Source: Plantactinospora mayteni
GTDB lineage: Bacteria; Actinomycetota; Actinomycetes; Mycobacteriales; Micromonosporaceae
Direction of reading: 5' to 3'
NCBI RefSeq assembly: GCF_016862935.1
Contig: NZ_BONX01000018.1
Span: forward strand, 1-64,000
Length of the DNA stretch: 64,000 bases
Below the pieces are notes generated by a model that was not told the DNA's origin, ran no database searches, and was given only the letters and a program-made list of their open reading frames with translations. This document shows positions 290 through 29,196 of this stretch, piece by piece. Position 1 is the stretch's first letter. Every line of letters starts with the position of its first letter. Both the position numbers and the translations under genes were made by a program.

Positions 290-380
290 TGAACCTTTTC
301 AACCTGAACCGCGCGGCGCTTACGCACCGCGTCCGACCTTGCGGCCCGTCGGACCGCAAGGGGAGGTGGAAAAAGGTTCA
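290..380. repeat. Structured repeat element, copy A (outer stem enclosing two hairpins)
   Basis: The ends TGAACCTTTT... and ...AAAAAGGTTCA pair as an outer stem (290-305 with 364-380). Inside are two hairpins, CGCGGCGC/GCACCGCG (one C-A mismatch) and CCTTGCGG/CCGCAAGG (perfect 8 bp). A second copy lies at 27759-27850 with about 14 differences over 92 columns. Copy A sits between two convergent genes and could terminate both, but it lacks a classical T-run after the stem. It could also be a small non-coding or mobile element. Confidence 0.65.
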
Positions 381-26575: not shown

Positions 26576-27745
26576 ATGACGGTGGACGCGCTCGCAGCGG
26601 CGCGCCGGGTGGCGCCACGACTCGCCGCCCGGGCGGCCGAACACGACCGGGACGGCACGTTCCCGGTCGAGGACTTCGCCGACCTGCGCTCGGCCGGGCT
26701 GCTCGGGCTGATGGTCCCGGCGAGGCTGGGCGGGCTCGGGGCCAGCTTCGCCGGGTACGCGGCGGTCGCCAGCGAGCTGGCCCGGGGCAACGGCGCGACG
26801 GCGCTGGTCTTCAACATGCACGCCTCGGTGACCGGTGCGCTCGGCGCGCTGACCGAGGAGTTGGCCGAGGCGCTCGGCGTACCGTCCGAGGCGCTGGCGG
26901 CCCGGGACCGGCTGCTCGCCGAGGCGGCGGCCGGCGCCTGGTATGCGGTGGCGATGAGCGAGCGCGGCGCCGGCTCCCGGCTGTCGAAGCTGACCACCAC
27001 GTACGAGCCGGTGGACGGCGGCTACCACATCAAGGGTGCCAAGACCTTCTGCTCCGGGGCGGGACACGCCGACGGCTACCTGGTGGCCGCCCGGAGCGTC
27101 GCCGACCAGTCGGTGGTGTCGCAGTTCCTGGTCCCGGCCGGGCCGGACGGGCTGCACGTCGAGCCGACCTGGGACTCGCTCGGGATGCGGGCCACCGCCT
27201 CGCACGACCTGCACCTGGACGTGACGGTGCCGACCGACCGGCTGCTCGGCGGGGTGGAGGGGCTGGCCCTGGTGGTCGCGCAGCTCATGCCGCACTGGCT
27301 GGTGGCCAGCTATGCGGCCGTCTACGTCGGAGTGGCCCGGGCGGCGATCGACGCCGCCGTCGAACACCTGACCGGACGCGGGCTGGACGGCCTGCCGGCG
27401 GTACGCGCCCGGGTCGGCCGGGCCGACGCCGCCACCGCCGCCGCCCAGTTGGCGGTGACCGAGGCGGCCCGCCGGGTCGACGAGGCGCCGGGCGACGCCG
27501 AGACGAACCGCTGGGTGTGGCGGGCCAAGCTGCTGGCCGGGACGACCGCGGCCGAGGTGGCGGCCTCGATGGTGGAGGCGGCCGGCACCTCGGCGACCCG
27601 GCGGGGCCATCCGCTCGAACGCCTCTACCGGGACGCCCGGTGCGGGTCGCTGCATCCGGCCACCTCGGACGTCTGCGCGGACTGGCTCGGCATCGCCGCG
27701 CTCGGCGGCGACCCGGACCGGGACGCGTCGACTCCCCGATGGTGA
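26576..27745 (+). CDS. Acyl-CoA-dehydrogenase-fold flavoprotein, possibly a monooxygenase
   Basis: 389 aa with the three-part acyl-CoA dehydrogenase layout: helical N-domain, beta middle domain (AMSERGAGSRLSKL; IKGAKTFCSGAGHADGYLVAA) and helical C-domain. The catalytic Glu is not where medium-chain enzymes have it: the YEGT segment reads LHPATSD here. By eye alignment the alternative isovaleryl-type Glu position in the helix around LMPHWLVAS also lacks Glu. Flavin monooxygenases of this fold (DszC-type) lack that Glu too, so a hydroxylase role in the phenolic lipid pathway is plausible. ATG with GGAAGGGA upstream. Confidence 0.75.
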   Translation: MTVDALAAARRVAPRLAARAAEHDRDGTFPVEDFADLRSAGLLGLMVPARLGGLGASFAGYAAVASELARGNGATALVFNMHASVTGALGALTEELAEALGVPSEALAARDRLLAEAAAGAWYAVAMSERGAGSRLSKLTTTYEPVDGGYHIKGAKTFCSGAGHADGYLVAARSVADQSVVSQFLVPAGPDGLHVEPTWDSLGMRATASHDLHLDVTVPTDRLLGGVEGLALVVAQLMPHWLVASYAAVYVGVARAAIDAAVEHLTGRGLDGLPAVRARVGRADAATAAAQLAVTEAARRVDEAPGDAETNRWVWRAKLLAGTTAAEVAASMVEAAGTSATRRGHPLERLYRDARCGSLHPATSDVCADWLGIAALGGDPDRDASTPRW

Positions 27746-27758
27746 GGGGTCCGGTGAC

Positions 27759-27850
27759 CGAACCCCTTTCACCCTGAACCGCGCGGCGTTCACGTACCGC
27801 GTCCGACCTTGCGGTCCGCCCGAGCGCGAGGGGAGGTTGAAGAAGGTTCA
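27759..27850. repeat. Structured repeat element, copy B
   Basis: About 85% identical to the element at 290-380. The outer arms (GAACC...GGTTC), the CGCGG/CCGCG hairpin and the CCTTGCG/CGCGAGG hairpin are all kept. Several changes replace one pair by a G-U pair, as expected for an RNA structure. It lies in the 320-bp gap between the flavoenzyme and the type III PKS; the rest of that gap (27851-28065) shows no further gene or motif beyond the PKS ribosome site. Confidence 0.65.
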
Positions 27851-28065
27851 CTGGTACCTGACAGTGGCGAGCCGGCCGCCCGGCCACCACCGGCGCGGTC
27901 GGGCCGTACCGCGACCGGGCGCGTCCGGTCGGCGCGAGTCCCGAGGTCACGCTCGGGGGTTGGGCTCGGTGGGGCGCGTGGAGCGCGCACGGTGCGTTCG
28001 GCACCGGCGGTCGCCGGGGTCCAGTGCAACTGCACCCCGAAGAGCAGTCGCGATCGGAGGACGGC

Positions 28066-29196
28066 ATGGGAAGCGGAAGCGGGCAGGACGGCTCCGGGGT
28101 GATCGTCGGCGTGGGCGTGGCGCTGCCGCCCACGGCCAGCCAGCAGGAGCTGTGGGCGGGCTTCTTCGCGGGGCACTTCTCCGGGTCCACCCGGGCGCTC
28201 GCCGAGCGGATCTTCGCCAACTCCGGGGTACGGCACCGGCAGGCGGCGGTGAACCCGCTGCTGGAGGACGTCTCGGACTGGCCGACCGAGCGCCGGATGC
28301 GCCGCTACCAGATCGAGGCGCTGCCGCTGGGCAAGGAGGCGGTCGCCCGGGCGCTGACCGACGCCAGGCTCTCGGCCGGGGAGATCGGCCTCTTCGTGGT
28401 CTGCTCCTGCACCGGGTACGCCACGCCGGGGCTGGACATCCTGCTGGCCCGGGACATGGGGATGGCCCCGGACACCCAGCGGATGTTCGTCGGCCACATG
28501 GGGTGTTACGCGGCCCTGCCGGGGCTGGCCGCCGCCAACGACTTCGTCACCGCCCGGGGCCGCCCGGCGCTGCTGCTCTGCGCCGAGCTGACCAGCCTGC
28601 ACATCCAGCCGTCGACGGCTCGGATGGACACCCAGCAGATCATCTCGCACGCGCTCTTCTCCGACGCCGCCGTCGCCGTCGTGGTCGCTCCGGGAACCCG
28701 TTCCGGGTACGCCGTCCGCGAGGTCACCGCCGTCACCGACACCTCGACGGCCGACCACATGACCTGGGAGTTGACCGACACCGGCTTCCGGATGGGACTG
28801 TCCCCAAAGGTGCCCCAGGTACTGGCGGCACACGTCCTCGATCTGGTCACCGACCTGCTGGCCCGGCACGGAAAGCGGATCTCCGAGGTGGACGGCTGGG
28901 CGGTGCATCCCGGCGGTCCCCGGATCCTCAACGTGGTGGAGACGGAACTCGGCCTGCCGCCGGAGGCCCTCGCCGCATCCCGGGCGGTACTCGACGAGAA
29001 CGGCAACTGTTCGTCGCCGACCTCCCTACTCATCGTGGAACGACTTCGGCGGTCGGCCGTTCCACCCCGTACCGTGGTGATGCTCGCGTTCGGACCCGGG
29101 CTGACCCTCTACGCGGCACTGCTGGACCGGCAGCCCGGGGCGGCACGGGCGGACGGCACGCGGCCGGCCCACCAGGTCGGCCAGGGTGGCTCCTAG
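28066..29196 (+). CDS. Type III polyketide synthase
   Basis: 376 aa, chalcone/stilbene synthase family. The catalytic triad is intact: Cys147 in GHMGCYAALPG, His281 in AVHPGGPRIL and Asn314 in DENGNCSSPTS; the CTGYATPGLD block is also diagnostic. It would extend a fatty acyl-CoA starter with malonyl units to a resorcinol, pyrone or related ring. Neighbouring UbiA prenyltransferase, UbiG-like methyltransferase and flavoenzyme recall the agqABCD cluster of Actinoplanes (alkyl dihydrogeranyl methoxyhydroquinones). ATG with CGGAGG upstream is preferred to a longer start at 28024. Exact product unknown. Confidence 0.92.
   Translation: MGSGSGQDGSGVIVGVGVALPPTASQQELWAGFFAGHFSGSTRALAERIFANSGVRHRQAAVNPLLEDVSDWPTERRMRRYQIEALPLGKEAVARALTDARLSAGEIGLFVVCSCTGYATPGLDILLARDMGMAPDTQRMFVGHMGCYAALPGLAAANDFVTARGRPALLLCAELTSLHIQPSTARMDTQQIISHALFSDAAVAVVVAPGTRSGYAVREVTAVTDTSTADHMTWELTDTGFRMGLSPKVPQVLAAHVLDLVTDLLARHGKRISEVDGWAVHPGGPRILNVVETELGLPPEALAASRAVLDENGNCSSPTSLLIVERLRRSAVPPRTVVMLAFGPGLTLYAALLDRQPGAARADGTRPAHQVGQGGS

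Follow-up and report, generated by a model that had tools for sequence, protein, structure and literature searches.

What is the short, folded repeat that occurs twice in this window—the whole 64,000-nucleotide stretch of Plantactinospora mayteni DNA analysed here—and has its fold been kept as RNA or does it come from DNA? The two copies, A (290-380) and B (27759-27850), both on the plus strand, agree at 78 of 92 columns (84.8%), in line with the roughly 85% given in an earlier note on this DNA, and in each an outer inverted repeat encloses two inner ones, which that note had rightly drawn as an outer stem around two hairpins. The note had described these two copies and had offered three readings: a small RNA, a regulatory leader, or an RNA-structured mobile repeat. 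Our analysis bears out the mobile repeat, on the strength of copy number, target duplications and empty sites, and lends no support to the small RNA or the leader; the copies very probably belong to a family of about 92-bp, non-autonomous, MITE-like DNA transposable elements.

Copy A is 91 bp long and has the form T-GAACC...GGTTC-A; its left terminal repeat (290-305) is short of one T, and its right terminal repeat occupies 364-380. Between them lie inner inverted repeats 1 (312-331) and 2 (337-361), corresponding to hairpins 1 and 2. Copy B, at 92 bp, is laid out in the same way, with terminal repeats at 27759-27775 and 27834-27850 and inner repeats at 27782-27801 and 27807-27831, and is decayed, six of its pairs being broken relative to the family consensus. 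Their surroundings are as the earlier note described them: copy A sits between convergent frames, a frame without an assigned identity ending at 277 and a Complex1_49kDa/NuoD-type gene on the minus strand (425-1588), while copy B lies 3' of an acyl-CoA dehydrogenase-type gene (ending at 27745) and about 215 bp upstream of a chalcone/stilbene-synthase-type (type III PKS) gene, whose start near 28066 is our choice.

These two are a small part of what the genome holds. The 17-bp terminal repeat, allowing up to two mismatches, matches the 9.84-Mb, 123-contig assembly at 193 places (101 forward, 92 reverse; none for a control), and with two ends per copy this implies roughly 100 copies. A search with copy A found at least 41 near full-length places, 40 of 179 first-look candidates having been scored. 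We fetched 30 of these 41 places together with 40 further regions, drawn from 100 of the 193 end matches, and a profile HMM delineated 77 non-overlapping stretches in the fetched loci and the window. Intact copies measure about 92 bp and carry 17-bp terminal inverted repeats (TGAACCTTTTTCAACCT...AGGTTGAAAAAGGTTCA) around an interior of less than 60 bp; they thus combine short length and terminal inverted repeats with high copy number and no internal transposase. By a motif rule of our own, 70 aligned copies divide into two subfamilies of 49 and 21, with A and B in the first. A few copies depart from the plain form: L062 (3070-3175) is 106 bp long, with additional bases near hairpin 2, and neighbouring copies in opposite orientation occur in L021 (1503-1594 and 1614-1696) and L069 (2922-3014 and 3028-3120), perhaps by nesting or by landings favoured beside an existing copy.

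The flanks carry the marks of insertion, which the earlier note had overlooked, as it had the terminal repeats as such. A typical copy reads X-TGAACC...GGTTCA-X, and in 63 of 71 copies (the 77 stretches less five weak ones and one duplicate) the two X bases are identical. The wider target is S-A-N-T-S—an A precedes X on the left in 60 of the 71, a T follows it on the right in 64, and the two sides share the full ANT in 46. Read symmetrically, the ends are GAACC...GGTTC with a 3-bp duplication of consensus ANT; the duplication may instead be of 1 bp, with TG...CA ends, since the left outer base is A in 60 of 71 but the right inner base is A in 66 of 71. The window copies show the pattern imperfectly: ACT at 288-290 faces ACC at 380-382 around copy A, and ACC at 27757-27759 faces ACT at 27850-27852 around copy B, each pair agreeing at its first and middle bases. 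Copies from other genomes have equal X in only 21 of 40.

Empty sites complete this picture. The rejoined flanks of 11 copies were queried against the genus, and 25 relative loci could be aligned for seven of these insertions; in all 25 the element is absent from the junction. At least one relative aligns straight through the rejoined junction, at 0.90-0.96 identity, for L088, L029, L085 and L080; for L079 the alignment ends 5 bases beyond the junction, and the relatives of L097 and L083 diverge after it. An earlier attempt, with seven loci queried and four aligned, had found L012 alone to be empty, its junction differing by 3 bp; L025, L028 and L006 were uninformative. High copy number, palindromic sequence and a frequently intergenic position would also suit a hairpin element of the REP type, mobilised by a Y1 (RAYT) transposase. 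Terminal inverted repeats of this length are, however, at odds with REP insertion, as are the short target duplications and the restored empty sites, and we regard this origin as exceedingly improbable.

How far the family extends depends on the search used. A covariance model built from 70 copies, scoring at most 17 candidates per genome, matched 18 of 250 genomes of the bacterial family, in 4 of 44 genera; an end pattern, which leaves out most interiors of the window type, matched 20 of 354 genomes in 6 of 44 genera, and the two combined give six genera. The model and the search of relatives had been proposed in the earlier note, which held that a lack of further copies there would count against it; the copies are there. 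DNA similarity reached 5 of 41 genomes, all in the window's own genus. An exact 18-base pattern found 2 of 298 genomes of the order, both in the same family, and none of 244 genomes from other families, with the low sensitivity of a pattern that recovers one of six sampled genus g4 genomes matched by the covariance model. Genus g46 has the same ends around a different interior; its 18 copies with both ends span 83-92 bp, and X, judged by eye, is equal in 12 of them. In many g46 copies (L207, L212 and L229 among them) the terminal repeat has the same fixed C-A mismatch, the right end reading AAAAAAGTTCA versus GAACCTTTTT; on the opposite strand the mismatch is a G-U pair.

The main rival to a mobile DNA element is a structured RNA—a small RNA, a leader or a 3' element of mRNAs—selected for its fold and possibly spread by a mobile element. 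The fold of copy A speaks for it, surpassing every one of 200 shuffles on both strands (z of -3.24 on plus and -4.99 on minus); copy B, in contrast, folds no better than its shuffles (z of -0.77 and -0.34). The earlier note had quoted its G-U changes correctly, T-A to T-G in hairpin 2 and GC/GC to GT/GT in hairpin 1, and had concluded that differences tend to keep pairing. Set against the family consensus, that does not hold: among altered pairs, copy B keeps four and breaks six, and copy A keeps none and breaks three. Compared directly, A and B differ at 12 pairs, of which four stay paired, two are gained, five are lost and one is unpaired in both; differences that break the stems as often as they keep them are what the note itself had said would tell against its proposal.

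Covariation was assessed within the genome and between species. Across the 70 own-genome copies (68 distinct), 86.1% of cells pair versus 85.9% after shuffling, a value that 143 of 500 shuffles reach. Double changes affect 9 pairs (6.3 shuffled; 51 of 500 reach this) and 13 cells (8.5 shuffled; 27 of 500), and the covariation score is 0.052 versus 0.047 (21 of 500); the excess is slight, and related sequences can yield as much without any structure. Between species the excess is strong—85.1% of cells pair versus 78.6% shuffled, with 91 double changes versus 28.6 (largest shuffle 40)—in an alignment of related sequences that was itself fitted to the structure, 41 of 64 rows being kept once second-strand matches and four duplicate loci were dropped. 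An RNA reading would likewise predict this covariation. Judged by eye, much of it lies in the terminal repeats, where recognition of both ends by a single enzyme would be expected to produce it; some is also seen at the base of hairpin 2.

A working RNA should also tolerate G-U pairs on its own strand, and the earlier note had taken such tolerance as a pointer to RNA selection. The minus strand does fold better than the plus in 58 of 70 copies, and in the hairpins of subfamily I, plus-strand C-A cells, which are G-U on the minus strand, outnumber G-T cells by 91 to 21. A few inherited columns supply the bulk of the C-A cells, however, and between species the counts are 60 G-T to 68 C-A, so that a G-U excess appears on neither strand; covariation accompanied by G-U tolerance on an RNA strand was therefore not found. 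Several g46 copies fold as a single long hairpin instead of two, and Rfam has no match in the window at gathering scores. RNA-level selection is accordingly not supported as the main cause: clear covariation within the genome, a G-U excess between species and an Rfam match are all absent, the g46 interior differs while the ends stay, and the copies share no single gene context. A structured RNA is thus very unlikely, and it is mainly the matching DNA ends of the element, rather than a working RNA, that give it its folded look.

Gene context bears on a further rival, a transcription terminator repeated 3' of genes. A simple gene caller assigns a neighbour on each side to 47 of 72 copies without placing a gene across them: 18 lie between convergent, 20 between tandem and 9 between divergent genes. 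The 18 convergent placements, set beside the nine divergent ones, would suit a terminator, as would the 12 of 72 copies that stand exactly at a stop codon. Against it, copy A yielded no terminator-like site (0.1 expected), copies also adjoin start codons, and some lie within called genes; we consider such a function extremely unlikely.

The landings at stop codons also have a place in the mobile-element reading. Both tips of the element read TGA, and for 15 of 72 copies this tip TGA is where a neighbouring long frame terminates; in 12 of the 15, rejoining the flanks reveals a natural stop codon at that exact position (11 TGA, one TAG). In eight of the 72, the junction coincides exactly with the ATG or GTG that opens a long frame; the start looks true in L006, L011, L061 and L003 (an ATGA overlap), and that of L025 lies within a longer open frame. 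Nine stop codons in S-ANTGA context versus 316 other intergenic S-ANT-S sites give an expectation of 2.8%, compared with the 12 of 72 seen, although this expectation comes from a crude gene caller applied to the window and 20 loci, in which missed genes inflate the 316. The comparison is suggestive of an enrichment of insertions at stop codons, which may be explained by low damage there: where the target is an ANTGA stop codon, the insertion would leave the gene with a stop, do little harm and be kept.

For the mobile element itself, we infer a trans-acting mobiliser, most likely a DDE transposase, which would read the ends and insert with a 3-bp stagger. Its recognition of the ends would keep the two alike, while the inner repeats would be inherited from the source copies and would decay once inserted. 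Among insertion sequences the ISL2 group of the IS5 family, for which ANT is the target consensus, offers a close comparison. That consensus does not appear in the parts consulted of two papers (PMC7674623 and another). One IS5 (ISL2)-like element, ISDge6, is described as having ends of 23 nt and a direct repeat of 3 bp, TCA (PMC7674623). A transposase linked to the present element was sought in the own genome through PF13359 and PF13586, and none of the 13 DDE loci of these two families carries the element's ends. The best terminal-repeat match near them has mismatches at 5 of 17 positions, in L137, away from the ends of the element at that locus. L137 (811-1742) and L138 (1397-2328), both in the own genome, each hold a copy of another IS-like element, which matches DDE_Tnp_1_2 and whose perfect ends, AGTGAGTGTTTGAGAAGGG, are unrelated to those of the MITE.

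Partial searches for a related autonomous element with the same ends found none, and judging by the parts of the source consulted, one is not required of every described bacterial MITE (PMC2229807). An exact-pattern scan across GTDB (possibly leaving out the own genome) returned 31 stretches, none titled as belonging to the same family. The end pattern gave nine matches in the genus, all in the own genome and none an autonomous element: seven are paired, L202 is a decayed copy and L200 is single. After the lone match of L200 (1501-1517) comes a hairpin that is unrelated and carries a T run; tolerating as many as five mismatches, a search of about 1.5 kb gave no second end. Among 29 loci inspected from the family scan, 21 are paired, L210, L227 and L234 have a decayed second end, and L208, L224, L225, L233 and L235 are single; ten frames beside six single ends have no transposase match in Pfam. 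A scan of 33 genomes with copies gave two matches, both known copies; plasmids and phages gave none, and viral contigs gave one A+T-rich match without a second end. L224 and L225, from two genus g48 genomes, show the same single end at matching positions near 1501 and between the same neighbours, a periplasmic-binding protein and an alpha/beta hydrolase (Pfam detects both in L224 and only the hydrolase in L225), from which it follows that this insertion predates the split of the two genomes.

Several described bacterial repeats resemble the element. RUP of S. pneumoniae, Correia/NEMIS and ERIC share with it a size of about 100-200 bp, terminal inverted repeats, target duplications, a base-paired form and around a hundred copies; RUP has 110 in one genome according to the consulted parts of two sources (PMC2229807, PMC3049150). 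All three are described as A+T-rich with TA at the termini, whereas the present element has a G+C-rich interior, duplicates ANT and ends in TGA tips; RUP also has a proposed partner, IS630-Spn1, and the partial searches here found none. SPRITE repeats of S. pneumoniae are found preferentially close to where convergent genes have their 3' ends (PMC3049150); they have very short terminal repeats and a terminator-like fold, neither of which the present element has. A search of largely non-subscription literature on repeats of Micromonospora, Actinoplanes and Micromonosporaceae and on the end sequence gave no description of the element, and it looks like a new high-copy MITE family.

This adds what looks like a new MITE family to a bacterial group that is mined for natural products, and it suggests a practical rule for small folded repeats: terminal repeats, target duplications and empty sites should be checked before an RNA label is applied. 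With its landings exactly on stop codons, the family offers a clean example of low-damage insertion that can be put to the test. A bolder reading, which we hold to be doubtful, is that of an orphan family spread over six genera and moved either by an enzyme that reads the outermost bases only or by a host transposase without such ends, its TGA tips and ANTG target making the stops of genes safe landing sites; if true, the family would have a built-in means of inserting at gene ends without damage.
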